A DNA stretch of 64,000 nucleotides from Spirochaetales bacterium (GTDB taxonomy: Bacteria > Spirochaetota > Spirochaetia > Sphaerochaetales > Sphaerochaetaceae), in NCBI GenBank assembly GCA_018433865.1, contig JAHDQJ010000002.1:186001-250000 (forward strand). The letters run 5' to 3'. The translations under genes were made by a program, and so were the position numbers. Under the pieces are notes generated by a model, which did not search any database, was not told the DNA's origin, and saw only the letters and a list, made by a program, of their open reading frames with translations. This document shows positions 6,811 to 23,227 of the stretch, in pieces. The number at the start of each line of letters is the position of its first letter. The first letter of the stretch is position 1.

Positions 6811-6825
6811 GAAATCACTCCTGAT

Positions 6826-6835
6826 ATATCGATAT
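6826..6835. promoter_or_regulatory. TATCGATA palindrome upstream of the FMN lipoprotein
   Basis: ATATCGATAT, a 10-nt palindrome between the -10 box and the ribosome-binding site of the FMN lipoprotein gene. The same core recurs before other redox lipoprotein genes here (7921, 15254 and 19628). Confidence 0.5.
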
Positions 6836-6843
6836 CGCTGTAT

Positions 6844-6872
6844 AGTATATTAGTTGGATGCATGTTATGCAA
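6844..6872 (-). promoter_or_regulatory. Promoter of the FMN lipoprotein gene
   Basis: Minus strand TTGCAT (6867-6872), 17-nt spacer, TATACT (6844-6849). Together with 6811-7020 this makes up most of the intergenic stretch; nothing else was recognised there. Confidence 0.8.
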
Positions 6873-7020
6873 TACCAACTGGCACAAAAATGGAATCCAC
6901 ACGGGAATTTTACAGCTATTCATTTCCAGCATGACAGTTACCCAATGAATCCTACGCGCTCTTTGCCATGCCCCCCACCCCCCGTGATCCTTCATGGGAA
7001 CATGTGAGGATGGACATGTT

Positions 7021-7053
7021 GAAGCCCGGCATCCAGGACGAACGCCGGGCTTC
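7021..7053 (-). terminator. Hairpin after the second lipoprotein gene
   Basis: 10-bp stem GAAGCCCGGC/GCCGGGCTTC (7021-7030 with 7044-7053), 13-nt loop, just past the stop codon at 7068. It lacks a strong T-tract, so it may terminate weakly or protect the mRNA end. Confidence 0.6.
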
Positions 7054-7067
7054 GTGATCGATCGCGC

Positions 7068-7868
7068 TTAGCGATGCACTGCGGTCAATGCACCATTGAT
7101 GGTGAGGACATTGTTCTCGAGAGCAGCCTGGAGCGTACCATCGAAGAAGTACTGAGCATCGGCAGCGGCAATGTTCTTCACGATATTGCCAGTCTTCGCT
7201 GTCGATTTCTCATCAACCTGCTTTCCGCCAGCGACGCTGCTGTCCCATACTTTCGACCAGTTGATGGTCGCTGCAGTGCCGTCAGTACTGAAATCCTTGC
7301 TGATGACCTGGGGACCGGCACCTACGATATAGCCGATCGCACGGCTTTCGAATGCACCGTTGGGGAAGAGAAGCTTTCCGCTCTTGTCGGTGGAAATCCT
7401 ATACGCGGTTCCGCGGTGAGCGTACTGGACGGTGATCGTTCCATCGGCAGCCTTGCTTGCGTTCAGGTTGTCCGTGACAAGCTGGGCGTACGGATTGGTT
7501 CCGAAGAGGAACAGTCCGCGCAAACCGCTCGACAATGTCGCCTTCCCTTCCACGTCGTAGAGGTAGGCATTGAACAGATGGGTGGAACCGAGTGCTGATG
7601 CACCGGTGGTCTCATCGGCGTGGTCCTTCTCGGCAGCCATGTAGCGGATGTTACCGGTGAAGGAGAAATAGTTCTCCGCATCCGGAGCGGCCACATTGAG
7701 ACGATAGCTGATCTTCAGATCCTGGGAACCATCGGAAACGGGAGCTGCGGGTGCAGCAGGTGCAGCTGCCGGAGCCTGGGCTGCAGGGGCAGGCTTGGCG
7801 CATCCGATCGCCACGAACGAGACGATTGCGATGATCGCAACCAAAGAAATCCAAGTCATTTTTTTCAT
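7068..7868 (-). CDS. Lipoprotein of unknown function in the EET locus
   Basis: Lipoprotein of 266 residues with signal peptide, lipobox AIGC (Cys23), and an Ala/Pro linker like those of the FMN and rhodanese lipoproteins nearby. I do not recognise the remaining 215 residues. One feature stands out: DETTGAS at residues 85-91 fits the ApbE flavin-acceptor pattern Dxx[ST]GA[ST], with Ser as possible acceptor. That could be chance. Start ATG 7868 has GGGAG upstream, a possible -10 TATACT at 7888-7893, and an inverted TCGATAA/TTATCGA repeat at 7904-7926. Position and linker suggest an exported partner of the FMN lipoprotein; the function is inference. Confidence 0.75.
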   Translation of the reverse strand: MKKMTWISLVAIIAIVSFVAIGCAKPAPAAQAPAAAPAAPAAPVSDGSQDLKISYRLNVAAPDAENYFSFTGNIRYMAAEKDHADETTGASALGSTHLFNAYLYDVEGKATLSSGLRGLFLFGTNPYAQLVTDNLNASKAADGTITVQYAHRGTAYRISTDKSGKLLFPNGAFESRAIGYIVGAGPQVISKDFSTDGTAATINWSKVWDSSVAGGKQVDEKSTAKTGNIVKNIAAADAQYFFDGTLQAALENNVLTINGALTAVHR

Positions 7869-7903
7869 GATTCACTCTCCCTCTGGGGCAGTATATAAGA
7901 ATG

Positions 7904-7929
7904 ATTCGATAATATATTACTTTATCGAT
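7904..7929. promoter_or_regulatory. TCGATAA-N9-TTATCGA inverted repeat, TATCGATA box
   Basis: TCGATAA (7904-7910) is repeated in inverse orientation as TTATCGA (7920-7926) after 9 nt. The right arm continues to give TTATCGATAT with the TATCGATA core at 7921-7928. It lies just upstream of the -10 region of the second lipoprotein gene, a position suited to regulator binding. Confidence 0.5.
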
Positions 7930-7992
7930 ATGATGCAAGAGGAGATCGTCATGATTTTCATCGATTTTTCAGATGGCGAAACCAAGGAAAGG

Positions 7993-8018
7993 AAAACCGA
8001 TCCCTGTGATGGGATCGG
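7993..8018 (-). terminator. Terminator of the small-peptide transcript
   Basis: On the minus strand: CCGATCCC/GGGATCGG 8-bp stem (7997-8018), 6-nt loop, then TTTT. It ends the short transcript that starts near 8195 and carries the 28-residue ORF. Confidence 0.85.
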
Positions 8019-8081
8019 CTCTCTTCGGAAGCGGAAGATGCTGCAAGGGCAGCAGTGGAAGCATAAGTGGCGGCTCTTGGA

Positions 8082-8168
8082 TCAGAGGTACCGTACGGCT
8101 AGTGCAGCAACCGCCACCACGCATGAAACCACACCGAAATAGGTGAGGAACCAGGTGACTTTATCCAT
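8082..8168 (-). CDS. 28-residue single-span membrane peptide
   Basis: A very short ORF starting MDKVTWFLTYFGVV and ending AVRYL; nearly the whole peptide is one hydrophobic span with a basic C-terminus. Support for translation: AAGGAG about 8 nt before the ATG, a strong promoter at 8202-8231 on the same strand, and a terminator at 7993-8018, so it has a transcript of about 200 nt to itself. It lies between the lipoprotein genes and eetA in the EET locus. Small peptides like this often stabilise membrane complexes; which complex is unknown. The 60 nt between its TGA and the terminator contain no clear gene. Confidence 0.6.
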   Translation of the reverse strand: MDKVTWFLTYFGVVSCVVAVAALAVRYL

Positions 8169-8201
8169 GATGCGATCTCCTTGGGATGTATGGTATATCC
8201 T

Positions 8202-8231
8202 ATTAAATAATTTTTTATCGATTCATGTCAA
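8202..8231 (-). promoter_or_regulatory. Promoter of the 28-residue ORF with a TATCGAT box in the spacer
   Basis: Minus strand TTGACA (8226-8231), 18-nt spacer, TTTAAT (8202-8207). The spacer contains TTATCGAT (8215-8222), close to the TATCGATA motif seen upstream of neighbouring redox genes. Confidence 0.75.
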
Positions 8232-8251
8232 GCAGGTGCTTGCCAGAGACT

Positions 8252-8280
8252 TTGACAAGCGATTGGCAACCTGTTACGAT
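8252..8280 (+). promoter_or_regulatory. Promoter of eetA, start site at the ATG
   Basis: TTGACA (8252-8257), 17-nt spacer, TACGAT (8275-8280). Predicted transcription start about 8287, which is the A of the eetA start codon. Confidence 0.75.
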
Positions 8281-8286
8281 GCGCCC

Positions 8287-8661
8287 ATGCGGCGCCTCAA
8301 GCCTGGAGATTTCGTCATTCTCATCATCTCGGTGGCAATCATACTTCTCAGCATGAGATCCTTCGGCGAGTTTTCGGGAAAGCCGGAGGTCCGGGTCCGT
8401 GCGGGCGGCAAGCAGTGGGTCTACGATCTGTCTGTCGACACACGGGCCACCTTCGATGGACCGGTCGGCAGCACGACCATGGAGATTGAAGGGGGAAAAG
8501 TGCATGTGCACGACTCGGATTGCCGCAACAAGGTCTGTATCGCCGCAGGATGGATATCGAGACCCGGACAGTGGATCATCTGTCTCCCCAACGACGTGTT
8601 CATCCTGATCGAAGGCTCGGAAATCCAGGAGGAAGGAGGTGCCGATGACACGGCTTTCTGA
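8287..8661 (+). CDS. eetA: EetA-like NusG domain II protein
   Basis: Protein of 124 residues: one N-terminal membrane span (about residues 7-25), then a NusG domain II fold. The pattern is typical of this family: DSDCRNKVCIAAGWI and GQWIICLPN. The homologue in Listeria (EetA) is needed for flavin-based extracellular electron transfer. The start is ATG 8287, the only one that keeps the membrane span. There is no ribosome-binding site, and the -10 box ends 6 nt upstream, so the mRNA is probably leaderless. The 3' end overlaps eetB by 17 nt. It heads the eetA-eetB-fmnA-like operon. Confidence 0.8.
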   Translation: MRRLKPGDFVILIISVAIILLSMRSFGEFSGKPEVRVRAGGKQWVYDLSVDTRATFDGPVGSTTMEIEGGKVHVHDSDCRNKVCIAAGWISRPGQWIICLPNDVFILIEGSEIQEEGGADDTAF

Positions 8662-9184
8662 TCGCCACATTCCTGCACGGGTCGAATTCGTTGCGTTGCT
8701 TGCTGCGTTCGCACTCTTCCTTTCGACTGTCGAGTACATGATTCCGAAGCCGGTTCCTTTCATGCGGATCGGACTGGCAAACCTTCCGCTCATCATCGGA
8801 CTCGGCATCCTGAGCGACCGGGAATACTTCCTGTTGGCCGTACTCAAGGTCTTCGGACAAGGATTGGTCACCGGAACCATCTTCTCCTACATCATCCTTT
8901 TCTCGTTGGCAGGAACCGCGGCAAGCACGTTGGTCATGTATGTGTTCTATCGATTCGCCAGACGGTTCATCAGCCTCTTGGGCGTGAGCATCGCGGGAGC
9001 CATGGCAAGCAACATCGCGCAACTTCAGTTGAGCCGCTTGATACTCTTCGGGGATGCCGCACGCCTGATAGCCCCGCCCTTCCTCGCCGTCGGCCTGGTG
9101 ACATCCATCCTCTTGGGGCTTTTCGCCGAGAGTTTCGTCGTCAAATCCCAATGGTATGCGAAGCAAAAGGAGAATCGTCCATGA
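8645..9184 (+). CDS. eetB: EetB-like Gx transporter family membrane protein
   Basis: Integral membrane protein of 179 residues in the Gx transporter (heptaprenyl diphosphate synthase component I, Hpre_diP_synt_I) family, related in fold to ECF transporter S components. It starts near LLAAFALFLSTVEYMIPKP and contains MRIGLANLPLIIGL, both characteristic. In Listeria EetB works with EetA in extracellular electron transfer; the transported molecule is not established here. GGAGG at 8635-8639 gives ATG 8645. Overlaps eetA upstream and the next gene by ATGA. Confidence 0.82.
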   Translation: MTRLSDRHIPARVEFVALLAAFALFLSTVEYMIPKPVPFMRIGLANLPLIIGLGILSDREYFLLAVLKVFGQGLVTGTIFSYIILFSLAGTAASTLVMYVFYRFARRFISLLGVSIAGAMASNIAQLQLSRLILFGDAARLIAPPFLAVGLVTSILLGLFAESFVVKSQWYAKQKENRP

Positions 9185-9786
9185 GCGCATCGCAGGCAAC
9201 ATTGCTCATGGGAATCCTCTCCCTGCCCGCACTCCTGCTACAGGACAATCTGCTCGGAATTGCGTGCCAGGTGCTCTATGTCATATTCCTCGCGATTGGT
9301 CGGGGCAGGAAGTTCAGGATCCTTCCGAACCTGATCCTCCTGATCAGCGTATCCAGCGCACACCTGCTGCAACCGAACGGACTGCACTTGGTCTCCCTGG
9401 GAGGATTCTCCGTTACCTTGGGAGCCTTGCTCCTCGGAGCGAGGAAGGCACTTACCTTGATGGGGCTGCTCTACCTCTCCCACTACATGGTCTCGGGACG
9501 TCCCGAGTTCCCAGGAAAGCTGGGCAAGCTCGTGGCCATGCAGTTCTACTATTTCGAGAGGATCACCACAGGTTGGCGTTCGATCCAACCGAAGAGACCC
9601 TTCATCGGGGCGATAGACCGGTTGATGTTGCTTCTCGAAGATTCCGGGAGCGAACCTGCAAGCATTTCCACCAAGGGTTCCCTACGGGCGACCACACGGG
9701 TGCTCATCACGAACGCTATGCATGTGCTCGTACTCTGGTCACTCTTTTTCGCAGGATATCTCGGATTGCTCCCCGCCTTCGGATGA
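9181..9786 (+). CDS. EcfT/FmnA-like membrane protein
   Basis: Membrane protein of 201 residues with 4-5 likely spans. It follows EetB with an ATGA overlap and AAGGAG upstream. The order EetA-EetB-(EcfT-like) followed by an ApbE gene suggests the counterpart of Listeria FmnA, the ECF transmembrane subunit that with RibU supplies FAD outside the cell for flavinylation. The sequence is shorter than usual EcfT, and I do not see the paired Ala-Arg-X coupling motifs clearly, so the assignment rests mainly on context. No ATPase or S component apart from EetB is visible in the window. Confidence 0.55.
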   Translation: MSASQATLLMGILSLPALLLQDNLLGIACQVLYVIFLAIGRGRKFRILPNLILLISVSSAHLLQPNGLHLVSLGGFSVTLGALLLGARKALTLMGLLYLSHYMVSGRPEFPGKLGKLVAMQFYYFERITTGWRSIQPKRPFIGAIDRLMLLLEDSGSEPASISTKGSLRATTRVLITNAMHVLVLWSLFFAGYLGLLPAFG

Positions 9787-9787
9787 C

Positions 9788-10852
9788 TCAGGGTGCCGCA
9801 AGCGTGAACTGCTGATCGCTGATCGTATAACTGAGTGTTCCGTCCTGCAATCCCCGCGAGAGATACAGATGATGTTCCTTGTCGATGATCACCGCCTCGA
9901 CACCCTCCAAGGAATTGATCAGGGCCATCCCCTTTTCAAGTCCCAATGAGTAGACGGAGGTCGAAAGGGCATCGGCGATGAACGAATCCCCGGTGATGAT
10001 GCTCGCACTGGTCAGGTCGGTTTCCACCGGATACCCGGTTCCGGTATCAAGGATGTGGTGATACACGATGCCATCGAGCTCGAGATAACGCTCATAAGGT
10101 CCGCTGGTGACCAACGCCTTGTCCTCCAATCCGATGATCATCACATGTCCGCCCCGCTCGGCCTCAGGATTCTGGACACCGATCCGCCAAGGGCTTCCGT
10201 CGACCCTGGTTCCCATGACCAAGACATTGCCCCCGAGATTGATGATCGCCTTTTCGACGCCGAAGGAGGCGAGCACCTCGGCGACCTCATCCGCTGCATA
10301 TCCCTTTGCGATGCCACCCAGGTCGATGACCATTCCGGCATCGAGAAGCTCCACGGTGGAGTGTTCGGCATCAAGCACCACCCGTTCATACCCGACCAGT
10401 GGCAACAGATTGTCGATCTCCTCTTGGGGAGGACGGCGGGGATTGTCCCCTCCGATGTCCCAGGCCTTGACCAACGGCCCGATCGTGGGATCGAACGCAC
10501 CATGACTCATCCTGGCGGCATCAAGGGCTTTGCCGATCACCAGGAAGGTATCCTCGGAGACCGAAACCGGACCGAGCCCTGCGGATCTGTTGATCGTTGC
10601 GACCTCGCTGGTATCCAGATGGAGACTCATCCGCTGTTCGATTTCCGCGATGCGCGCGAACGCCTTGTCGAACGCAATGTCATCCACCACATCATATATG
10701 GTGATGCGACAGACGGTCCCGAGCATGAGCTCAGAGCGGGAACGCGGTTCCGTGGAGACCCTCTCGGAGCCCCTGGAACACGAAATGGTGAAGATTATCA
10801 GAAAAATGATTCCGATAAAAAAGAACTGAATTGCATTATTGGTACGTTTCAT
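9788..10852 (-). CDS. apbE: ApbE flavin transferase lipoprotein
   Basis: Lipoprotein of 354 residues, lipobox TISC (Cys25), anchored at the outer face of the membrane. ApbE hydrolyses FAD and links FMN covalently to Thr or Ser of exported proteins. Family motifs are complete: GAFDPTIGPLVKAW, DLGGIAKGYAAD, NLGGNV, TSGPYERY and HHILDTGTGYP, then DSFIADALSTSVYSLG. The obvious client is the triple FMN-domain lipoprotein at 5503-6810. It is transcribed away from ndh2. A weak TTCGCA-N17-TACATA promoter ends 8 nt before ATG 10852 with no ribosome-binding site, so it may be leaderless; a 13-nt palindrome overlaps this promoter. Confidence 0.93.
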   Translation of the reverse strand: MKRTNNAIQFFFIGIIFLIIFTISCSRGSERVSTEPRSRSELMLGTVCRITIYDVVDDIAFDKAFARIAEIEQRMSLHLDTSEVATINRSAGLGPVSVSEDTFLVIGKALDAARMSHGAFDPTIGPLVKAWDIGGDNPRRPPQEEIDNLLPLVGYERVVLDAEHSTVELLDAGMVIDLGGIAKGYAADEVAEVLASFGVEKAIINLGGNVLVMGTRVDGSPWRIGVQNPEAERGGHVMIIGLEDKALVTSGPYERYLELDGIVYHHILDTGTGYPVETDLTSASIITGDSFIADALSTSVYSLGLEKGMALINSLEGVEAVIIDKEHHLYLSRGLQDGTLSYTISDQQFTLAAP

Positions 10853-10875
10853 GATACTACTATGTAAGTGATATA

Positions 10876-10888
10876 TCGCATAATGCGA
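10876..10888. promoter_or_regulatory. Palindrome in the apbE-ndh2 divergent region
   Basis: TCGCAT-A-ATGCGA, a perfect 6-bp dyad around a single A, in the 131-bp divergent intergenic region. It overlaps the probable -35 element of apbE and could coordinate both genes. Confidence 0.45.
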
Positions 10889-10983
10889 AAAACAGCAACC
10901 ATCACTGACGGACCTGCATGTCCGTCATCCACTATCAGTACGAAGCATTACGGTTTACGGACCAGAGGATAAGGAGATTCTAC

Positions 10984-13032
10984 ATGGATAAGAAAAGGAT
11001 TGTGATTCTTGGCGGAGGATATGCCGGAGTCCATGCGGCAAAGGTGCTGCACAAGGCCTTCAAGAAATTGAAAGACACTGTGGAAGTCACGCTGATCGAC
11101 CGCCACAACTACCACACCCTCATGACAGAATTGCATGAAGTGGCAGGAAATAGGGTTGACGAATCATCGGTAAAGATTTCCTACAACCGAATCTTCGCCG
11201 GAACGACGGTGAATGTGATTCGCGATGAGATCAAGCACATCGATTTCGAGAAGCAGGTCCTTGAAGGGATCGGCGCAACCTATGCGTATGATCAGCTGCT
11301 CATCGCGACCGGTGCGGAACCGACCGACTTCAACATACCCGGAGTCAAGGAACACGCTTTTTATCTCTGGAGCCTCGAGGATGCGCTTCGCATCAAGCGC
11401 CACATCATCGACATGGTGACTGCAGCCTCCTACGAGAAGGATGCACAGAAGCGAAGGGAGATGCTCACCTTCGCAGTCGCGGGCGGTGGATTCACCGGTG
11501 TCGAGCTCGTAGGCGAGCTGATCGAGTGGTTGCCGATCCTCTGCAAGGAACACGGTGTGGACTTCAATGAGGTGAAGCTCATGAACGTCGAGGCGTTGGG
11601 AAACATCCTCAACATGCTGACCGACAAGCCCCGCCAGAAGGCGATCGAGTACATGCACAAGCATGGGGTCGAGATCAAGACCAACAGCCTGATCATCAAT
11701 GCCGATGAGAACGGATTCACGATCAAGGACGGTACGGTAGTCAAGACCAAGACCCTCGTGTGGACCTGCGGAGTCCGCGGCACCACGTTCTGCCACAATC
11801 TCCCCCTCACCGACGGAAAGGTCCAGAGGAAGAAGGTCGACGAGTTCATGCGCTCCCCCGATTACAAGAACGTCTATCTCGCAGGTGACGGAATCTGGTT
11901 CATGGAGGATGGCAAGCCGGTCGGACAGATCGTCGAGGCCGCCGAGCAGACCGCAGCCACGGCAGCACACGGCATCATCTACAACATCAAGTCGGAGTTG
12001 GGACTGAAAGTACAGGAGCCTGCGCCGTTCAAGTCCAACTTCCACGGGTTCATGGTTTCCATCGGCGGCCGTTACGCGGTATCGAATACCATGGGTGTCG
12101 TCATGTACGGATTCTTCGCACAGGCGATCAAGCACATGGTCAACATGTATTACCAGTTCGGCGTGTGCGGAGTGAACGGTGCGTGGACCTACTTCAAGCA
12201 TGAGATTCTCAATATCAAGCACCGCCGTTCCCTGATCGGCGGCTTGGCTTCCTATCGGGTCCCTCCGTACTGGATCGTATTCCTCCGCATGTATCTCGGT
12301 GTCATGTGGTTGATCGAAGGTGGGAACAAGATCGTCGAAGGCTGGCTTACCGACACCACCGGCAGCAAGGTCTACTGGGGACCGCTCCCGGGCGCCGAAG
12401 GCGGTGATGCAGTCGCAGCTGCCTCGGAAGCGGTGGTGGAAACCGTCGCAGAGGTGGTTGGTGGAGTATCGGTTGCTTCCGCTTCCTACGCTGCCCCCGC
12501 GGCAGTCGAGACGGTGAGTGCCGCGAGCGGCGCGGTCGTCGAGACCGTGACCAGTGCAAGCGGGTACGCGACCGAAGTCGTCGGAGAGGTTGCCACGAAG
12601 GTCAAGCAGTTCGCCCCGCCGTTGCTCGATCAGCCGCTCGGCATCTATACATGGATCAACGAGACCTTCGTTGCCGCTGCTCCCTACCTGTTCCAGCTCA
12701 TGATCGTTCTCGCTGAGGTCGGAATCGGACTGTGCTTCCTTGCAGGTCTGTTCACCTTCCCCGCAGCAATCGTATCGATCGGATTGTCGATCATGTTCCT
12801 TATCGGAGCACTCGCCGGCAAGGAAATCCTCTGGTACATGGCTGTCTCGATCGTCATGCTCGGCGGTGCCGGCCGTGCACTCGGTCTCGACTACTGGGTG
12901 ATGCCCTACCTGAAGAAATTGTGGAACAAGACTCCGATCGCAAAGAAGCTCTACTTCTTCATGGATGAGCCTGAGTTCACCCGCAAGCAGATGGAGAGAC
13001 GTCTGGCAAAGCAGAAGGATGCATCCCTATAA
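10984..13032 (+). CDS. ndh2: Type II NADH dehydrogenase with C-terminal membrane domain (Ndh2)
   Basis: Protein of 682 residues. The N-terminal 400 residues are an NDH-2 flavoenzyme: FAD loop ILGGGYAG, NADH loop VAGGGFTGVELVGE, TCGVRG and LAGDGIWF. It transfers electrons from NADH to quinone. The C-terminal part is unlike respiratory NDH-2: a span near 435-455, an Ala/Val-rich low-complexity stretch (about 470-540), then a DoxX-like group of spans (about 565-640). Listeria Ndh2, dedicated to extracellular electron transfer, has a comparable extra membrane domain. ATG 10984 has AAGGAG upstream. The quinone-side gene follows after 2 nt. Confidence 0.88.
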   Translation: MDKKRIVILGGGYAGVHAAKVLHKAFKKLKDTVEVTLIDRHNYHTLMTELHEVAGNRVDESSVKISYNRIFAGTTVNVIRDEIKHIDFEKQVLEGIGATYAYDQLLIATGAEPTDFNIPGVKEHAFYLWSLEDALRIKRHIIDMVTAASYEKDAQKRREMLTFAVAGGGFTGVELVGELIEWLPILCKEHGVDFNEVKLMNVEALGNILNMLTDKPRQKAIEYMHKHGVEIKTNSLIINADENGFTIKDGTVVKTKTLVWTCGVRGTTFCHNLPLTDGKVQRKKVDEFMRSPDYKNVYLAGDGIWFMEDGKPVGQIVEAAEQTAATAAHGIIYNIKSELGLKVQEPAPFKSNFHGFMVSIGGRYAVSNTMGVVMYGFFAQAIKHMVNMYYQFGVCGVNGAWTYFKHEILNIKHRRSLIGGLASYRVPPYWIVFLRMYLGVMWLIEGGNKIVEGWLTDTTGSKVYWGPLPGAEGGDAVAAASEAVVETVAEVVGGVSVASASYAAPAAVETVSAASGAVVETVTSASGYATEVVGEVATKVKQFAPPLLDQPLGIYTWINETFVAAAPYLFQLMIVLAEVGIGLCFLAGLFTFPAAIVSIGLSIMFLIGALAGKEILWYMAVSIVMLGGAGRALGLDYWVMPYLKKLWNKTPIAKKLYFFMDEPEFTRKQMERRLAKQKDASL

Positions 13033-13034
13033 TC

Positions 13035-14021
13035 ATGAATGAGTTTTGGAAAGACGAACCGACGATTTCCTCCGAACTGGAGGACGTCGGTTCGTTGATA
13101 CATGATGCGATTGATCGCTCACACAGCTTTGTCAGGCAACTGCTGTCCGCCCAGGTAAAGACCAACGGGAAAATGCTCCGCCCTGCCCTGGTCCTCATCG
13201 GATCGAGGTTGGGCGATCCTGCGCGCCGTGACGGGGCAAAGAAGATCGCCAGCGTGCTGGAGATGATCCACATGGCATCGCTGGTGCATGACGATATCAT
13301 CGACGACGCACGTACCCGCAGGGGATTGCCGACGCTCTACGCCCAAGCGGGTGCGAAGCAGGCGGTCCTTGCGGGAGACTATCTGCTCTCGAGGGCGATG
13401 GCCCTGGTCGGAGGAAGAGAAGGAGACCTTGAGGCATCGACGGTCTCGAACGCGTTCAGCCGATTGTGCGAGAGCGAACTTGACCAGGATGCCGGCCAAG
13501 GCGATTTCACCATCTCGGCGAATACCTACATGCGCCGTATCGCGGGAAAGACCGCATCGCTGTTCGCACTGAGCTCCTATGCAGGAGCTGCGGTGGCGAA
13601 GGCTGACGCATGCGCACAGCGAAAGATGCACCGCATCGGGTACCTCATGGGCATGGCATTCCAGATCCAGGATGATATCCTCGATTACGACGGTCATGCA
13701 GAGAAGCTCGGCAAGGAACCGGGAAGGGATATCCTCAACGGTATTCCTACCCTTCCCCTGCTCGCTGCGTTGAAGAAGGAGAAGGTGCTGCCTGTCGAAG
13801 AGCAACTGCTGCACCAGATCACCGCGAAACAAAAGATCTCGAAGCGGGATGCGGCGAAGGCGGTCAAGAGAGTCGTTCAGCTCGGAGGACTGCAGGAGGC
13901 GAAAGGGATCGCTGGCAAGTATGCCGACCGTGCCACGCATGATATCCGAAGCTTGGGACACGATGAGGTCGAACGTATCCTTCTTTGGGTGTTCGACAGA
14001 CTGTCAGGCCGCCGGACCTGA
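13035..14021 (+). CDS. Polyprenyl diphosphate synthase (DmkB-like)
   Basis: trans-Prenyltransferase of 328 residues that elongates isoprenoid diphosphates for a quinone side chain. Both aspartate-rich motifs are intact: VHDDIID with the basic RTRRG after it, and QIQDDILDY. It starts 2 nt after ndh2 and is translated from the same mRNA. In Listeria the EET locus also carries a polyprenyl synthase (DmkB) making the demethylmenaquinone used by Ndh2, which suggests the same job here. Chain length cannot be read from sequence. No DmkA/MenA is in the window. Confidence 0.87.
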   Translation: MNEFWKDEPTISSELEDVGSLIHDAIDRSHSFVRQLLSAQVKTNGKMLRPALVLIGSRLGDPARRDGAKKIASVLEMIHMASLVHDDIIDDARTRRGLPTLYAQAGAKQAVLAGDYLLSRAMALVGGREGDLEASTVSNAFSRLCESELDQDAGQGDFTISANTYMRRIAGKTASLFALSSYAGAAVAKADACAQRKMHRIGYLMGMAFQIQDDILDYDGHAEKLGKEPGRDILNGIPTLPLLAALKKEKVLPVEEQLLHQITAKQKISKRDAAKAVKRVVQLGGLQEAKGIAGKYADRATHDIRSLGHDEVERILLWVFDRLSGRRT

Positions 14022-15331: not shown

Positions 15332-16300
15332 ATGAAACACAAGATCTCGCTCGTTCTCGTGCTTGTCCTGCTCTCATTGGTCCTGGTGTTCACCGGATGT
15401 GGAAAGAAGGAAGTTGCGGCAACACCCGCTGCGGCACCTGCTGCTCCCGTAGCGGCACCTGCACCCGCCCCTGCTCCGGCACCGGCAGCTCCTGCGATCG
15501 ACAAGAACGCAGTGTTGGTCTCTGCGGCTGAAAACTATTTCACCCAGATTGCAACCAGCAACAACATGATCGCCGCAAAGGATGTCAAGGCCATGATGGA
15601 TGACAATCCGGACGCAATCATGATCATCGACATCCGCGCTGCAGCCGATTTCGAGGCCGGACACATCGCTGGCGCTTACCACAGCGAGTGGAAGGATCTC
15701 GGCAATGTCATGGAGAAGATTCCCACCAACCGCCAAGTCGTGGTCACCTGTTACTCAGGGCAGACTGCAGGTCAGGCGATCGGCGCCCTCAGGCTTGCAG
15801 GATTCACCAACGTGAAGACCCTCACCGGCGGCATGAACGGTTGGAAGGCAGCAGAACTGACCGCGGTTGAGACCGGCGCGAAGCCCCTTGCCTCCCGCTC
15901 GGATACATCCGCACCGAAGAACGATGAGCAGAAGATCCTCTGGGATGCGGCGAAGGCCTACTTCAAGGCTGTCGGAACCGACGGCAACAAGCTGATCAAG
16001 CCCCAGGATCTCTACGATACGCTGCAGACCAATCCGAAAGCCTTCACCGTGATCGACATCCGTGGAAAGGCTGATTACGATGGCGGCCACATCGAGTACT
16101 CCACCCACACCGCGTGGGCACAGATGGGAGGACAGCTCGCCTCCTTGCCCAAGAACGGCAAGATAGTGATCGTATGCTTCTCCGGCCAGACTGCCGGACA
16201 GACCGTCGGCGTCCTCAGGACCCTCGGTTACGATGCCTACTCCCTCCAGGGCGGCATCAACAACGGCTGGAAGCCCGCGAATCTTCCTCTCGTCCAATAA
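15332..16300 (+). CDS. Lipoprotein with two rhodanese domains
   Basis: Lipoprotein of 322 residues: lipobox FTGC (Cys23), Ala/Pro linker to about residue 55, then two tandem rhodanese domains. Each keeps its active-site loop: CYSGQT with Cys140 and CFSGQT with Cys282. Rhodaneses carry sulfane sulfur as a Cys persulfide. Outside the membrane it could handle thiosulfate, polysulfide or possibly selenium species; this is inference. The signal, linker and upstream palindrome match the EET lipoproteins. AAGGAG precedes ATG 15332. tRNA-Sec starts 52 nt downstream. Confidence 0.88.
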   Translation: MKHKISLVLVLVLLSLVLVFTGCGKKEVAATPAAAPAAPVAAPAPAPAPAPAAPAIDKNAVLVSAAENYFTQIATSNNMIAAKDVKAMMDDNPDAIMIIDIRAAADFEAGHIAGAYHSEWKDLGNVMEKIPTNRQVVVTCYSGQTAGQAIGALRLAGFTNVKTLTGGMNGWKAAELTAVETGAKPLASRSDTSAPKNDEQKILWDAAKAYFKAVGTDGNKLIKPQDLYDTLQTNPKAFTVIDIRGKADYDGGHIEYSTHTAWAQMGGQLASLPKNGKIVIVCFSGQTAGQTVGVLRTLGYDAYSLQGGINNGWKPANLPLVQ

Positions 16301-16347: not shown

Positions 16348-16352
16348 CTATG

Positions 16353-16441
16353 GGAAGCAGAAGGGGTCTGGTGGCTCCCGCGGTCTTCAAAACCGTAGGC
16401 TGTACAAGTCGCAGCGGCAGGTTCGATTCCTGCCTCTTCCG
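16353..16441 (+). tRNA. selC: tRNA-Sec (anticodon TCA)
   Basis: 89-nt tRNA that decodes UGA as selenocysteine. The anticodon loop CTTCAAA (16385-16391) has TCA at 16387-16389 on a CGGT/ACCG stem. A long variable arm (GCTG..CAGC), a T-arm GCAGG-TTCGATT-CCTGC, and a GGAAG/CTTCC acceptor end with G discriminator, as in E. coli selC, all fit. The inner acceptor pairs are imperfect by eye. CCA is not encoded directly (GTACCA). No promoter was found; selA starts 4 nt downstream. Confidence 0.93.
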
Positions 16442-16445
16442 TACC

Positions 16446-17786
16446 ATGAATGAGCATCGTCCGCGCATACCACAAGTAGAAACCCTCTTGCAAGAACCAT
16501 CGGTCTCACGCTGGATACCCTTGATCAGCCGACCGATGGTCACCATGATCGTTCGTGAGGAACTTCAGAAGATACGACAGTCATGGATCGAGGACAAGAA
16601 AGAAATCACGCACGAAGAGTTGCTCGACCGCATTGTCCGAGCCTGTGTCGCACGATACCGGCGCAGCCCGCAACGGGTAGTCAATTGTACGGGAGTGATC
16701 ATACACACGAACCTGGGACGTTCGCCCATTGCTCATGAGACGTGGGATGCCGCAGGGGAATTGAACACCGCTTACAGCTCTCTTGAGCTCGATCTCGACA
16801 CTGGCAAGCGTGGGCAGAGGAACTCCTTGGCAGGCGATTTGCTTTCCCTCCTCGCAGGAGCAGAGTCTGCCATGGTGGTCAACAACAATGCCGCAGCGCT
16901 CTTCTTGATCCTTTCCGTCCTCGCCAAGCGCAAGGAAGTGATTGTCAGCAGGGGTGAGCTGGTGCAGATCGGGGGAGGCTTCAGGATCCCCGATATCCTC
17001 CGGCAATCGGGAGCCAGGTTGGTCGAGGTCGGTACGACTAACATCACCACGTGTGAGGATTACCTTGAGGCGGTCACCGAACGGACCGCTCTGGTACTGA
17101 AGGTTCACCGGAGCAATTTCGCCCTCCGCGGATTCACCGGGGAACCTACCACCGCAGAACTCGCGACCGCACTGGAAGGCCGGGTCCCCTTGCTCGTCGA
17201 CCAAGGTTCAGGAATCGTTCGACGCGGTATGCCCGGAGAGACTCCCATCGAGAATCACATCAGACAAGGAGCTTCCCTGGTCTGCTTCTCTGCTGACAAG
17301 GCTTTGGGGTCCGTCCAGGCAGGGTGTATCGTAGGGACTCGAAAGATGATCACCAAACTGCTGCAATCACCGCTCTACCGGGTTCTCAGACCAGGCAAGA
17401 CGATCCTGACCCTGCTTGAACATTCGGTGGTGGCACACCTGAACGGGGACATGCCTCCGGTACTCACCTGTATCGACCGATCGGTACGGGAGCAGCAGGA
17501 AATGGGCCTTTGTGTCCTGGAAGGCTTGCCGGAAGGAAGGTATTCCTTGGCAGGCGCTCCAATGACCTTGGGAGGCGGAAGTTCCCCCGATGAATACCGC
17601 GAAGGCGTGGCAATCAGGGTTTTGCTTGATCGACCAGCGGAAGAGATCCTCAGGAGGCTTCGTTCCCTGGATCCTCCGATCATCGGGACGATCGACAAGA
17701 AAGTTGTCCTCCTCCACCTGGGAGCCCTCTTCGAAGAGGATGTCCCCCACCTGAGAAACAGCCTTCGGGCCCTAGCGGAGTGGTGA
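16446..17786 (+). CDS. selA: L-seryl-tRNA(Sec) selenium transferase
   Basis: PLP enzyme of 446 residues that converts Ser-tRNA(Sec) to Sec-tRNA(Sec) using selenophosphate. Family landmarks: VNCTGVIIHTNLGRSP, VNNNAAALFLIL, and the PLP lysine Lys285 in SADKALGSVQAG (often SGDKLLGGPQAG elsewhere). ATG 16446 lies 4 nt past the 3' end of tRNA-Sec and there is no ribosome-binding site, because the upstream bases belong to the tRNA. Initiation may depend on tRNA 3' processing. selB follows at once. selD (selenophosphate synthetase) is not in the window. Confidence 0.94.
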   Translation: MNEHRPRIPQVETLLQEPSVSRWIPLISRPMVTMIVREELQKIRQSWIEDKKEITHEELLDRIVRACVARYRRSPQRVVNCTGVIIHTNLGRSPIAHETWDAAGELNTAYSSLELDLDTGKRGQRNSLAGDLLSLLAGAESAMVVNNNAAALFLILSVLAKRKEVIVSRGELVQIGGGFRIPDILRQSGARLVEVGTTNITTCEDYLEAVTERTALVLKVHRSNFALRGFTGEPTTAELATALEGRVPLLVDQGSGIVRRGMPGETPIENHIRQGASLVCFSADKALGSVQAGCIVGTRKMITKLLQSPLYRVLRPGKTILTLLEHSVVAHLNGDMPPVLTCIDRSVREQQEMGLCVLEGLPEGRYSLAGAPMTLGGGSSPDEYREGVAIRVLLDRPAEEILRRLRSLDPPIIGTIDKKVVLLHLGALFEEDVPHLRNSLRALAEW

Positions 17787-17788
17787 GC

Positions 17789-19597
17789 GTGCATATCATC
17801 GGAACGGCAGGTCATGTGGACCACGGGAAATCGACACTCGTCAGGGCTCTTACCGGAACCGATCCGGATCGGTTGCCAGAGGAGAAGCTCAGGGCCCTGA
17901 CGATCGAACTGGGTTTTGCCTCATACCGGAACGACGCTGGCCAGACGATCGGCGTGATCGATGTGCCGGGGCATGAACGGTTCATCAGGAACATGGTTGC
18001 GGGCACGTGGTCCCTCGATTGTGCCATGCTGGTCATCGCAGCTGATGACGGATGGATGGAACAGACAGAGGACCATGCGCAGGTCTTGTGTGGCATGCGT
18101 GTGCCTTCGGTATTTGTCGTGCTTACCAAACGGGACCTCGCCGATGAAAAGAGGTTGTCGGAAGTCACCATCGATATCGAAAAGCGGTTCACGGCCCTGT
18201 TCGGGTATGAGCCGGAGATCGTGGTGGCCAGCGCGTTGCATGATCCCGACCTGCGCGAATTGAAGCGCTGTATCGATCGACATCTCATGCACGAATCGTT
18301 GCACTGCCGCGTTCCCGCCCTCTTCGTAGACCGGACTTTCATCATGGCGGGAACAGGACCTGTCATCACCGGAAGTCTCCGTGGAGGCTTCCTCACGGTG
18401 GGCAGCGAGGTCACGATCCTGCCGAAGATGAAGCGATCGCGCATCCGCTCGCTCCAATGCTTCGGCAAGGCAGTGGAACGAGTGGAGGATGGGACGAGAA
18501 CGGCATTAGGATTGCAGGGGATAGGGATCGAAGAACTCTCGCGAGGCGATTGCCTGACCACGAGGGCCGATCTGTTTTCCGTCACCCAGCAGGCTTATGT
18601 TCTCTTGGTTGCGCCGTATGCCGACGGCAAGCTCGCATTGAAGAACCACGTTCAAGTGGAAATCGCATCGGGAACCTGGCACGATACCTGTTCCGTTCAC
18701 TTCCTGGGACGCCCCGTACAGGGAATGCACCACATGCTCGTACGTATCGTCAGCCATGAAACACAAGCATGGTATTGGCAACAGCCCGTCATTCTCATGC
18801 AACCGGGAGCAAGCACCGTGATCGCCTACGGAACGGTGATAGTCGCTGACAATCTCGCCAAAACCGAGCTCAATCGGCTGCGGGAGCTGCTTTCTTCCGA
18901 CAACGTCCTCCCTGCGGATATCGATTCTCCAGAACTATTGCGATTGTTCCTGAGCGGGTATCGGATGCTCCCCGGCAGGATGGGAAATGAACTCTCTGTA
19001 TGCGACCGACGATTTCTCCGGATCGGCCAATGGTGGATAGCTGCCGAAATAACCGAAGAAATCAAGCAGCGACTCTTCCAGGCGATATCCCGGCAGCAAC
19101 AACCGCTGGCTTTGGAAGAGGCCAAGCAAAGCACCCCCTATCCTGCTTCCGTCGTTGCTGCTGTCATCAGGAGATTGGAAGAGAACAATGAGCTTCGGGT
19201 TCGCAACGGAAAGTTGGAGAAAGGGGGTACACAAGAAGAACCTCTTCCGTCTGGGGCACGGGAACTCTTGATACGCATCGAGCGGAATGGATTCGATGGA
19301 TACGAGAGCAGGAAGCTGACCAGGGAGGAAAAGCCTTTGGTCGGGATACTCCTTCACGCAGACAAGATCGTGATCTTGGAAAGTACGTTCATCTACTCGG
19401 TAAAGACTCTTGGCACCATGATCGGCTTGGTATTGCAGGGGAGAAAAGTGAAAGACCGGTTCACCATCGGCGAGGCCAAGACACACATCCCGCTCAGCCG
19501 GAAATACATGCTTCCGCTGTTGAATCATATGGAGCAGGCAGGCTATGTCAGACGGATCGGAGACATTCGGGAGGTAATTCGGCTTCCTGAACGATAA
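17789..19597 (+). CDS. selB: Selenocysteine-specific elongation factor
   Basis: GTPase of about 602 residues that brings Sec-tRNA(Sec) to UGA codons marked by a SECIS hairpin. The G motifs are intact: GTAGHVDHGKST, DVPGHERFIRNM, and TKRDLAD. EF-Tu-like domains follow, then a C-terminal set of winged helices (from about residue 400) that bind the SECIS RNA. The start is uncertain: GTG 17780, 17783 or 17789. I prefer 17789 because GGAG lies 8 nt before it and the protein then begins VHIIGTAGHVDHG like other SelB. It almost abuts selA. Confidence 0.94.
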   Translation: MHIIGTAGHVDHGKSTLVRALTGTDPDRLPEEKLRALTIELGFASYRNDAGQTIGVIDVPGHERFIRNMVAGTWSLDCAMLVIAADDGWMEQTEDHAQVLCGMRVPSVFVVLTKRDLADEKRLSEVTIDIEKRFTALFGYEPEIVVASALHDPDLRELKRCIDRHLMHESLHCRVPALFVDRTFIMAGTGPVITGSLRGGFLTVGSEVTILPKMKRSRIRSLQCFGKAVERVEDGTRTALGLQGIGIEELSRGDCLTTRADLFSVTQQAYVLLVAPYADGKLALKNHVQVEIASGTWHDTCSVHFLGRPVQGMHHMLVRIVSHETQAWYWQQPVILMQPGASTVIAYGTVIVADNLAKTELNRLRELLSSDNVLPADIDSPELLRLFLSGYRMLPGRMGNELSVCDRRFLRIGQWWIAAEITEEIKQRLFQAISRQQQPLALEEAKQSTPYPASVVAAVIRRLEENNELRVRNGKLEKGGTQEEPLPSGARELLIRIERNGFDGYESRKLTREEKPLVGILLHADKIVILESTFIYSVKTLGTMIGLVLQGRKVKDRFTIGEAKTHIPLSRKYMLPLLNHMEQAGYVRRIGDIREVIRLPER

Positions 19598-19645: not shown

Positions 19646-19680
19646 GATTGCGAAGGGACAGATTTGCAATGGAGGAATCT

Positions 19681-21063
19681 ATGGGGAATGACAGGAAGGC
19701 ACAGATGTTCCGATTCGGGCTGCTCGCTCTGGCGGTCCTGATGGTGTTCTTCGCATTGGGTTGCAAGAAGAAGGAAGTGGCCGGCACGGCTCCTGCAGTC
19801 GCCGAACCGCAGGTCATCACCGTACGGTTCACCGACCCGGTTGATCTCGAACCGCAGCCGAGTGCCAAGTGCATCGCCTGCCACACGAAGACGAACCCGA
19901 TCAACAAATTGGCCAAACCAGTCTCTGCCGCGGCAGAGACAGGTGGGTGAGGCCCTGCCGCGCCGGAGTTTTCGGCGCTTGAAAAATTCCAAGTATCTTT
20001 GGATTTCCTTGACACTGCCCATGGGAAATTGGGTTGTGTGACCTGTCACGGAGGCAATGGCAACGAGGAGCGGTTCGAATTCGCTCACGTCGGTGTCAAC
20101 ACCTCCCCGTCCGCTGATGTGAATGGCATCTGTGCACAGTGCCACCAGGAAGCGACGGAAACCTATGGCAAGTCGTTGCACTATACCGTACGCGGATTCG
20201 CAAACTCCCTGATAGAGTTCAGCGGAGATCCGAACGCATTGGACAATCCTCACGAAGGATTGGGAGAGGTGTTCAACCTCAACTGCATGAACTGCCACGC
20301 CACATGTGGCGAGTGTCACGTCAGCAGGCCCAGCGGGTACGCGGGCGGTCTGATCGACAAGCACAAGTTCTTCAACTCACCGCCGATGGACCAGACCTGC
20401 TTCGGTTGTCATGGGGCCCGGAATGCCGGCGAGTTCATGGGGACCGTCGGATTCTCCCAGGACGTCCACTACGAGGCGGGGATGACCTGCGTCGATTGCC
20501 ATGATGTGAACAACTTCCACGGAACCGGTGAAGAGTATGCATCCATGTGGGACAAGCCGGTACTCCCCTCTTGTCTGGATTGTCACGAAGAGGTGGCATC
20601 GGGAAGCGCGAAGACACCGATGCACAATATCCACGGGGATACGCTATCTTGTCAGGTCTGTCACGCACAGGCAAACCAGAACTGCTTCGAGTGTCATGCA
20701 GATATCTCGGATGACCGGACGAGCCTTGCAAGCCACTCCGAGATGCGGGTGTTGTTCAGGATCGGCTTGAACCCGGAGCCGACCGAGGAGAGGCCGTACA
20801 AGTATGTGGCGTTGCGCCACATCCCCACGACCGCCGACTCCTTCGTCGAGGCGGGAGATGGGTTGTTGCCGAATTATGACAACATCACGAACTGGAAGTA
20901 CTCGCCGACCCATAACATCCAGAAGTCCACATTCCAGAACGAGAGTTGCGACTCTTGCCACGGGAACCCGCGGATCTTCCTGAATGAAAACGATTTGAGA
21001 GAAACCGACAGCGAAGCGAACAAGCGGCTTATCGCACCGCCGCCGGCATCAGTCGGATACTGA
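19681..21063 (+). CDS. Candidate selenoprotein: 11-haem c-type cytochrome lipoprotein with in-frame TGA
   Basis: One reading frame of 461 codons interrupted only by TGA at 19948-19950 (codon 90). Upstream: GGAGG, ATG 19681, signal peptide, lipobox FALGC (Cys28), haem motif CIACH (64-68), then ..AETGG before the TGA. Downstream the same frame is open at once (GPAAPEFSALEKF..) and holds ten more CxxCH motifs, starting with CVTCH (119-123). A GC-rich hairpin with a G-first loop stands 9-28 nt after the TGA, and tRNA-Sec, selA and selB lie directly upstream. I therefore read the TGA as selenocysteine. No independent start with a ribosome-binding site exists downstream. It should be an exported electron carrier or reductase, matured by ResB/CcsA encoded next. 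The alternative is a nonsense-mutated gene. I recognise no named family. Confidence 0.82.
19948..19978 (+). promoter_or_regulatory. Bacterial SECIS-like element after UGA codon 90
   Basis: UGA at 19948-19950, then a 6-bp perfect stem GCGCCG/CGGCGC (19960-19965 with 19973-19978) closing a 7-nt loop GAGUUUU. The loop starts 16 nt after the UGA and its first base is G. Both match the general model of bacterial SECIS elements recognised by SelB. Confidence 0.75.
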
Positions 21064-21140: not shown

Positions 21141-22406
21141 ATGAAACGAACATCAATGAAGGTACTGCATGCGATCGCCTCCCTGAAGGTTGCCATCGTG
21201 CTGCTCTCCCTGATCGCCATTTACATCGTGATCGGCACACTGCTGCCACAGCATAGCGCACCAGAATGGTATCTCGAACGCTATCCCGCCCTCGGATCCC
21301 TGATCATCTCGCTCAGCTTGGACAGTGCCTATGGTTCTCCGATCTTCATCGTCCTGATCGCACTGTTCGCAATCAACCTCACCACCTGCACGGTACTCTC
21401 GCTAAAGGGCCAATGGCGCCAGATGGACAGCAACTATTACCCCTCGTTCAAGGAAGATGAGTTCACCATCGACATAGAGGACCAGGATACCGTGCATACG
21501 TTCCTGAAGAGGAAACGGTTCCGGGTGGAAAGGGGCGGGGATGCACTGAGAGCGGGCAAGTTCCGGTGGGGAGTCCTCGGTGCCACGATCACCCATATTG
21601 GGCTCTTGGTGCTTTTCGTAGGGGGAACTATAGGGAACATGACCGCGTCCGAAGATGTGGTGAACCTGCTCCCCGGCAATGAGAAGCGGTTCGAGGAGGA
21701 GGGATTCCTCATCCGCCTCGAGGACTTCGACATGACTTTCGATGACAAGGGTGCCGTGAAACAATACATCAGCACGGTAACGGTAATCGACGACGACGGA
21801 ACGGAAACGACGCGTGAGCTGTGGGTGAACAATCCCCTGCACCACAAAGGGATCGGCATGTATCAAGCGAGTTTCGGGTGGACGGGGAACCTCCGTGTCA
21901 CCGACACCGCAAGCGGCGAGATCCAGGCAGAGGGGTTGCTCCGTTCCGGAAGGACTTACTTTCATCAATCGTCCCACCTGACCATCTATCTCTACGGATA
22001 TTATCCTGAGATGGCGATCGGGCATGACCAACAGCCGGTGTCCCTGAGCAATCGTGAAATCGATCCTCACTACGCGGTGGTGCTGTATGAGTTCGGCAAT
22101 CCGGTCGGCTCCTATATCATCGCCCCCGGAGAAGCCATTCCCTACAAGGACCTGGAGATCACGTTTACCCATGCGGTGGCCTATACAGGTCTCTTGGTCC
22201 GTTCCGACCCTTCCTACCCGGTCGTGCTCGCAGGATTCTTGATCATCCTGTTGGGCATGTTCGTCAGTTTCTATTGTTACCCCCGTTTCATCCACTTCTC
22301 ATCGGGCACCTTGCGTACCGCGAGCAGAAGGAACGGGTGGGTATTCCACCATAGCGTCCGTTCGGCTTTGGAACGCACGCAGACTCGCAAGAACAAAGAG
22401 GACTAG
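21141..22406 (+). CDS. resB: ResB/Ccs1 cytochrome c maturation protein
   Basis: Membrane protein of 421 residues, one half of the system II (Ccs) haem handling and attachment complex. Two spans lie near the N-terminus (LKVAIVLLSLIAIYIVIGTL..), a third near residue 150, then a large periplasmic domain and a last span near 360. The motif LPQHS after the first span is typical. GGAGG precedes ATG 21141. It follows the multihaem cytochrome by 77 nt, which contain an imperfect hairpin around 21085-21119. It attaches haem to CxxCH motifs after export. Confidence 0.9.
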   Translation: MKRTSMKVLHAIASLKVAIVLLSLIAIYIVIGTLLPQHSAPEWYLERYPALGSLIISLSLDSAYGSPIFIVLIALFAINLTTCTVLSLKGQWRQMDSNYYPSFKEDEFTIDIEDQDTVHTFLKRKRFRVERGGDALRAGKFRWGVLGATITHIGLLVLFVGGTIGNMTASEDVVNLLPGNEKRFEEEGFLIRLEDFDMTFDDKGAVKQYISTVTVIDDDGTETTRELWVNNPLHHKGIGMYQASFGWTGNLRVTDTASGEIQAEGLLRSGRTYFHQSSHLTIYLYGYYPEMAIGHDQQPVSLSNREIDPHYAVVLYEFGNPVGSYIIAPGEAIPYKDLEITFTHAVAYTGLLVRSDPSYPVVLAGFLIILLGMFVSFYCYPRFIHFSSGTLRTASRRNGWVFHHSVRSALERTQTRKNKED

Positions 22407-22408
22407 TC

Positions 22409-23227
22409 ATGGACAAATTCCAGAATATCGAGAACATCACCTTCACGATCGCATTCATCCTCTACATGGTATCAGCGATCACCCACCTCTTCTTGGTGAC
22501 GAAACTGGCAAAGAAGGTGGAGCCTATCGCAATCCTGACTGCACTGGCAGGCTTGGTGCTCCATACGGCAGCCATGGTCGCCCGGACCGCAGGAGCGAAT
22601 CGCCTGCCGTTCAGCAACCAATACGAATTCGCCTTGAGTTTTGCGTGGGGCATCGTATTGAGTTTCCTGATCCTCTACCGCATCTACCGGTTCGGAGCAA
22701 TCGGAGCGTTCGTCATGCCGCTTGCAATCCTCGTGATGGGATATGCATCGTTGCAGAGCAAGGCGGTGCGTCCCCTGATGCCCGCATTGCAAAGTCATTG
22801 GCTGACCTTCCACGTCGGAACGGCAATCCTCTCCTATGGAGCGTTTGCCCTTGCCTGCGGAATCTCGATCATCTATCTCATCGATGCCAAACGCACAGGG
22901 GATCACAGGATCCTCAAGGACCCGGAGGTCAGCGACATGCTCACCTACCGTGTCATCGTGTTCGGCCTCCTCATGTTGACGGTAGTGATCATCAGCGGGG
23001 CCATCTGGGCACAGAAAGCGTGGTCCAGGTATTGGGCTTGGGACCCCAAGGAGACCTGGTCGCTGATCACCTGGATCATCTATGCCATCTACCTCCATCT
23101 CAGGTTGCGCAGGAACTGGCGGGGAAAGAGTGCCGCGTGGTTCTCCATCATCGGGTTCATCTCCGTGCTGTTCACGTTCGTGGGTGTCAACATCCTGTTG
23201 CCGAGCATCCATAGCTACGCCACATGA
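22409..23227 (+). CDS. ccsA: CcsA/ResC cytochrome c maturation protein
   Basis: Polytopic protein of 272 residues and the haem-channel partner of ResB. The periplasmic haem-binding WWD-type motif is visible as WSRYWAWDPKETWSLITW, with flanking His residues in THLF, SHWLTFHVG and the final NILLPSIHSYA. It starts 2 nt after resB. Together the two are sufficient for system II cytochrome c assembly, and the only c-type cytochrome in the window is the one upstream. Confidence 0.92.
   Translation: MDKFQNIENITFTIAFILYMVSAITHLFLVTKLAKKVEPIAILTALAGLVLHTAAMVARTAGANRLPFSNQYEFALSFAWGIVLSFLILYRIYRFGAIGAFVMPLAILVMGYASLQSKAVRPLMPALQSHWLTFHVGTAILSYGAFALACGISIIYLIDAKRTGDHRILKDPEVSDMLTYRVIVFGLLMLTVVIISGAIWAQKAWSRYWAWDPKETWSLITWIIYAIYLHLRLRRNWRGKSAAWFSIIGFISVLFTFVGVNILLPSIHSYAT

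Follow-up and report, generated by a model that had tools for sequence, protein, structure and literature searches.

A predicted selenocysteine-containing eleven-haem cytochrome family encoded with rhodaneses

The gene run around the cytochrome

The window, that is the whole stretch of 64,000 nucleotides of DNA that was analysed, belongs to a genome that groups with Sphaerochaetaceae, its closest named relatives in a quick tree being Sphaerochaeta and Sphaerochaetaceae MAGs; a search of a plasmid collection with this sequence gave no match. On the forward strand it carries a gene for a double-rhodanese lipoprotein (15332..16300; two stretches matching Pfam PF00581) with the active-site loops CYSGQT and CFSGQT, and after it a gene for tRNA-Sec with anticodon TCA (16352..16442; ARAGORN, and Rfam RF01852 at 64.5 bits), selA for selenocysteine synthase (16446..17786; Pfam, and NCBIfam TIGR00474 at 442 bits) and selB for the selenocysteine elongation factor (17780..19597; Pfam GTP_EFTU and SelB-wing_3). 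Against TIGR00475 the last of these scores 237.9 bits, narrowly below the curated cut-off of 242.25. The longest selA open reading frame, with a listed start at 16350, overlaps the tRNA gene, and the TIGR00474 match begins only at residue 39 of that longer frame; the likely start is ATG 16446, 3 nt past tRNA-Sec, which then sits in the selA leader.

Also on the forward strand, a ribosome-binding site, GGAGG (19671..19675), stands 5 nt before the ATG at 19681 of the gene on which this work centres, that for a 460-residue, 11-haem cytochrome (19681..21063) recognised from its translated frame and its CxxCH motifs. An earlier note on this DNA had placed tRNA-Sec, selA and selB directly upstream of it, as is indeed the case, selB ending at 19597, 83 nt away rather than the 84 then given. 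Downstream on the same strand are two genes of cytochrome c maturation system II, one ResB-like (21141..22406; Pfam PF05140) and the other for CcsB (22409..23227; NCBIfam TIGR03144, 253.6 bits). Just upstream of this whole region, at 5506-14018, lie genes that resemble a flavin-based extracellular electron transfer set, none of them reaching its NCBIfam curated cut-off: those for a PplA-like FMN lipoprotein (5506-6810, reverse strand), ApbE (9791-10852, reverse), an Ndh2-like protein (10918-13029, forward) and a heptaprenyl diphosphate synthase-like protein (13035-14018, forward).

Placement of the Sec genes between rhodanese and cytochrome is a feature of the Sphaerochaetaceae-type loci. Two genomes of the same genus as the window lack both the cytochrome and selA, and their double absence suggests that the whole block has been gained or lost between close relatives.

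The in-frame UGA and the hairpin that follows it

The forward-strand frame from ATG 19681 to 21063 contains, as the earlier note had it and as translation bears out, a single interruption, TGA at 19948-19950 (codon 90), and its terminator is also TGA. Is the internal one decoded, and as what? When the window's own genome was searched together with those of 60 relatives (61 in all), three homologues came to light; every one has a single internal TGA, and the most distant is 38% identical. Scanning 84,980 species genomes then provided 80 loci, and a search of the class 15 matches. With duplicates removed, 89 distinct relatives extend across the site, and in 88 of them TGA occupies exactly the same column, in the context G-x-G-U-[GA] (G-G-U-G in the window, with U as residue 90). 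These relatives come from Spirochaetota, Chloroflexota, Desulfobacterota, Actinomycetota, Planctomycetota and Bacillota; their identity is mostly 33-47%, and the TGA column is kept down to 33%. Malonomonas rubra DSM 5091 and Dethiosulfatarculus sandiegensis SPR (L046, L066) are carriers that are in culture. The lone exception (L075) has TTG, for Leu, at that column. Among the 297 genomes of a Desulfobacterota sample, 40 of the 41 matches at E <= 1e-93 have one TGA, the remaining match being a contig-edge fragment that stops short of the site, and TGA-bearing matches were also found in samples of Chloroflexota (10), Actinomycetota (2) and Planctomycetota (1), some of which overlap the first set.

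Relatives aligning through the TGA with either Sec or Cys were what the earlier note had proposed to look for, and besides the 88 with TGA there is a fragment (L143, reverse strand, oriented position 1657) with TGT, for Cys, at the Sec column, its motif there being AGGCGG. That fragment, assigned to an Actinomycetota genome, is at a contig edge and is possibly a contaminating contig of the genome bin. A class search around this Cys form revealed no further one.

Compared with one relative (L010), the 371 codons after the TGA differ at 61, 48 and 244 first, second and third positions respectively, and the concentration of differences at third positions implies that the downstream frame is under protein-level selection. 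A sequencing error or a pseudogene is ruled out as the source of the TGA by the presence of the same TGA in 88 of the 89 relatives. Chance is ruled out by retention of TGA at the same column to 33% identity together with the third-position divergence.

A hairpin with an 8-bp stem, GCGCCGGA/UUCGGCGC (19960..19978, forward strand), begins twelve nucleotides after the start of the UGA and is identified from its fold, from covariation and from a covariance model, R1. Its apical loop has GUU at 19968-19970, and GUU is found at nucleotides 21-23 in 71 of 88 sequences. This is the SECIS-type arrangement, a hairpin directly after the UGA with G-U in the apical loop. Across 79 aligned relatives, compensatory changes are present in all eight stem pairs, and 85% of stem cells are paired versus 42-49% when the stem is slid. 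The covariation score is 0.451 for those 79 sequences against 0.152 +/- 0.014 when shuffled, and 0.314 against 0.124 for the 68 relatives left when Spirochaetia and two Bacillota sequences are excluded, the shuffles ignoring relatedness and the scores not being probabilities. In Spirochaetia different residues are encoded at the hairpin, yet the 8-bp stem and the same loop are kept. The best match of R1 in the window is the hairpin at 19960..19978, the training set of that model including the window sequence; model R2, trained on neither Spirochaetia nor the two Bacillota sequences, misses it. Folded by itself, the window hairpin is only modestly better than shuffles (z -1.5), and an Rfam search gave no bacterial SECIS match at the TGA site.

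The distribution of selA is also informative. It was detected in 46 of 50 genomes of further hosts; for the class, the figures are 13 of 15 carriers of the cytochrome versus 37 of 380 non-carriers (Fisher p = 4e-11, with relatedness ignored). Incomplete assemblies are the likely reason why it is missing from four of those hosts and two of the class carriers. Conservation of the TGA, the Cys variant, the covarying hairpin and co-occurrence with selA thus uphold the selenocysteine of the earlier note. The same evidence, with near-universal TGA across phyla and protein-type selection downstream of it, makes it extremely improbable that translation really ends at the TGA, or that some residue other than Sec is specified there, with the conservation of the codon reflecting something else. 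On these comparative grounds we are close to certain that Sec is what would be inserted at 19948.

The haem core and its genetic partners

CxxCH motifs start at residues 64, 119, 151, 202, 209, 240, 270, 298, 324, 335 and 423, and so the count of eleven, of which only the first precedes the TGA, agrees with the earlier one. The product of 19681..21063 matches Pfam cytochrome c families, and no NCBIfam model scored above its cut-off for the family. The claim that it is a lipoprotein also stands at the level of motif, a hydrophobic N-terminal segment being followed by a lipobox-like ALGC at residues 25-28 (19753..19764, forward strand), where close relatives have LIGC, FSGC or VVGC, and a lipid anchor is accordingly predicted. 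Family profile searches of the PDB gave the OTR structure 1sp3 as best match (E 1.3e-7), and hhalign against eight OTRs gave a probability of 98.6 and E 1.3e-15, with family haems 3-9 falling on OTR haems 1-7. An AlphaFold2 model (pLDDT 81.8, pTM 0.76; haems absent, and low confidence around residues 83-90) has its best structural alignment with 1sp3 over 267 residues, within residues 111-460, at Z 7.4, a level (Z < 8) that can be coincidental; Foldseek against the PDB gave no match at E <= 0.001. The alignments argue for homology between this core and that of OTR. The OTR-like core would comprise haems 3-9 and probably haem 11, and what precedes it would be an N-terminal extension, absent from OTR, that holds haem 1, the Sec loop and haem 2. 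Sec itself is flanked by glycines, 29-33 residues ahead of haem 2. There are nine invariant candidate distal histidines (H114, H136, H167, H228, H263, H280, H315, H318 and H411), while H380 is conserved at 84%; with 11 CxxCH motifs, at least one haem must therefore be without an invariant histidine partner.

The family has outliers in both directions. Longer versions, with 18 and 20 CxxCH and the same Sec motif, are present at L030:506-2758 and L082:2315-4813, both on the forward strand. Two distant relatives (L139 and L158) lack the Sec loop altogether, and the second of these, a ten-haem protein (L158:5271-6776, forward), is encoded beside a rhodanese-like ORF, with genes for a YedE-like transporter, TusA and a desulfurase-like aminotransferase-V protein as further neighbours.

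In 41 of the 49 loci that have both flanks, a rhodanese gene is at most four genes from that of the cytochrome. The linked homologous rhodaneses share the strand of the cytochrome in 56 cases out of 56, and Pfam confirms representatives of them. Rhodanese types vary between lineages, which leaves room for more than one origin of the pairing. None of the linked rhodaneses listed has Sec; all have Cys loops. In Dehalococcoidia the order is rhodanese, cytochrome, FeS protein and cytochrome b561, with a CsoR-family repressor nearby, and at other loci the neighbours are FeS and NrfD proteins. A Desulfobacterales subgroup (L035, L039, L057, L059 and L065) lacks the usual rhodanese and has a divergent upstream radical SAM-like gene. 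In Dethiobacter a rhodanese-linked multihaem cytochrome, SirA/OTR-like, is up on thiosulfate (PMC10376724); it is likened to the present proteins only, and membership of the family is not claimed for it.

Possible function and relation to known selenocytochromes

What might such a protein do? In the scheme proposed here, Sec would be inserted at the UGA via the adjacent hairpin and the tRNA-Sec, SelA and SelB of the same gene run, to give a c-type cytochrome with 11 haems, exported and anchored by lipid, in which an N-terminal Sec extension precedes an OTR-like core. The cytochrome would act on inorganic sulfur compounds together with the exported rhodanese encoded nearby, a type of chemistry suggested by the recurrence of the rhodanese and by the OTR-type core. 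Thiosulfate, polysulfide or a persulfide would supply sulfane sulfur to the rhodanese, which would hand it to the Sec selenol on the flexible Gly-rich loop, after which the Se-S adduct would be carried to the haem core and there reduced to sulfide; the quinol pool would provide the electrons, passed on via FeS and NrfD or cytochrome b subunits where genes for them are present. Since the loop is Gly-flanked and a rhodanese is encoded nearby, we favour, as far as sequence can indicate, a catalytic or carrier role for Sec rather than that of haem ligand. A selenol carrier arm in particular is proposed because, in addition to Sec being glycine-flanked, the Cys form contains the GGCGG of SoxY.

The components of the scheme do not all deserve the same confidence. 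We judge it probable, though by no means assured, that the protein is a quinol-linked sulfur-compound oxidoreductase acting with the rhodanese, and that it works as a reductase, not as an oxidase, is about an even call. That Sec is a covalent sulfur carrier arm is a tentative suggestion. The fullest version, in which the family is a large respiratory one, dependent on Sec almost without exception, whose swinging-loop selenol ferries sulfane sulfur from rhodanese to haem core, a seleno-SoxY built into an OTR-like reductase and an unrecognised route for respiration of thiosulfate, polysulfide or sulfur in several phyla, is offered more speculatively still. Relatedness of the core to OTR fits other substrates too.

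Multihaem cytochromes and SoxY-type carriers are able to run oxidatively, and the gene neighbourhoods leave the direction unfixed. Sec might instead serve an oxidation, of sulfide or polysulfide, in which electrons are sent inward and the rhodanese removes the bound sulfur, but many hosts of the cytochrome live anaerobically in reduced sediments, and enzymes of the OTR type bear the name of reductases; neither point is decisive, and we think oxidation by such a complex unlikely. It seems similarly improbable that Sec is an axial or redox-tuning haem ligand, with the cytochrome engaged in pure or extracellular electron transfer and no substrate chemistry. The nine invariant candidate distal histidines for eleven CxxCH and the PplA/ApbE/Ndh2-like genes upstream in the window point that way; however, flavin-type electron-transfer genes were seen in this window only, the Gly-flanked loop, modelled with low confidence, suggests mobility, and the recurring rhodanese partner would be left unexplained.

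Selenium or tellurium oxyanions are other candidate substrates, with selenite being reduced, or selenium assimilation fed, and the rhodanese handling perselenide. In Geobacter the rhodanese ExtH and ExtKL are clustered and loss of ExtI impairs reduction of selenite and tellurite (PMC5877670); some of the linked rhodaneses are weakly similar to ExtH, there is weak haem-stretch similarity to ExtM/ExtN, and in the window the Sec machinery is in the same gene run as the cytochrome. Nevertheless the ExtKL model is unmatched and Sec is placed differently, while the nearest recognisable core is that of OTR, a sulfur-compound family, and we regard an oxyanion reductase as a doubtful but reasonable prospect. 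The reading preferred remains sulfur-compound chemistry with the rhodanese.

Probably these proteins make up a large family of selenium-dependent enzymes of sulfur chemistry that has been overlooked, and they would link Sec to multihaem redox chemistry and to rhodanese partners. Gene callers that take TGA as stop split or truncate its gene. By its own account a published predictor may miss selenoproteins without Cys homologues (PMC12013277), and the present family, with almost none, is just such a case. The Sec cytochrome occurs in roughly one in eight of the 297 sampled Desulfobacterota genomes, and consequently a possible enzyme of sulfur respiration may be absent from metabolic maps of sediments.

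The earlier note knew of no described multihaem c-type cytochrome with Sec. That does not hold, as ExtKL (by prediction), MccSep (in the PDB) and some OTRs also carry Sec. A paper of 2007 (PMC1914089) drew attention to ExtKL of Geobacter (GSU2937-2936), one of 2018 (PMC5877670) considers it as a selenoprotein, and a 2026 review lists it together with a tetrathionate-reductase-family octaheme cytochrome (PMC13188914); the present family is not identifiable in the list of that review. ExtKL (NF040886), like the cytochrome described here, is a c-type cytochrome with several haems and a predicted Sec, and the rhodanese ExtH belongs to its cluster (PMC5877670, PMC1914089), but it has five haems, described as all N-terminal (PMC1914089), and its Sec is placed differently. 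Membership of the ExtKL family is ruled out, neither the proteins nor the window's own genome giving a match to NF040886 (cut-off 250 bits).

PDB entries 9wt8 and 9wt9 are of MccSep, 'multiheme cytochrome c selenoprotein', with a U325A mutant. The family profile matches it weakly (E 1.6e-3) and over chain residues 55-176 only, so that, from the position of the mutant, the Sec residues do not correspond. A literature search revealed no paper on MccSep or on a seleno-undecahaem cytochrome; our guess is that MccSep and ExtKL are identical. OTRs have eight haems, in contrast to the eleven CxxCH here, and a family member (L100) scores about 28 bits with TIGR04315, for which the cut-off is 375, hmmscan giving no match; score and haem count rule out OTR membership, with homology of the core retained. 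Sec-containing OTRs have their Sec between OTR haems 1 and 2, at the position of the conserved NNFC Cys, whereas in the present family it is elsewhere. Two true OTRs with an in-frame TGA before haem 2 (L152:1435-2970 and L153:1408-2805, both forward) have NNYU and NDYU, and the ordinary OTRs found alongside them have Cys in NNFC.

SoxY too has a glycine-flanked reactive residue, GGCGG, to be compared with AGGCGG in the Cys form of the family (PMC6067878, PMC5336275), but there it is C-terminal, while here the motif is internal (residues 88-92), has Sec and is in a multihaem cytochrome. The resemblance is of mechanism only, between proteins of different kinds that share a short motif, and no homology is claimed. 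Judged by where the Sec is placed, multihaem cytochromes with Sec seem to fall into at least three types, and the present type appears to be unlisted. Selenocysteine in multihaem cytochromes is therefore known in kind, and what is new is the number of haems, the position of Sec, the rhodanese module and the near absence of Cys forms.
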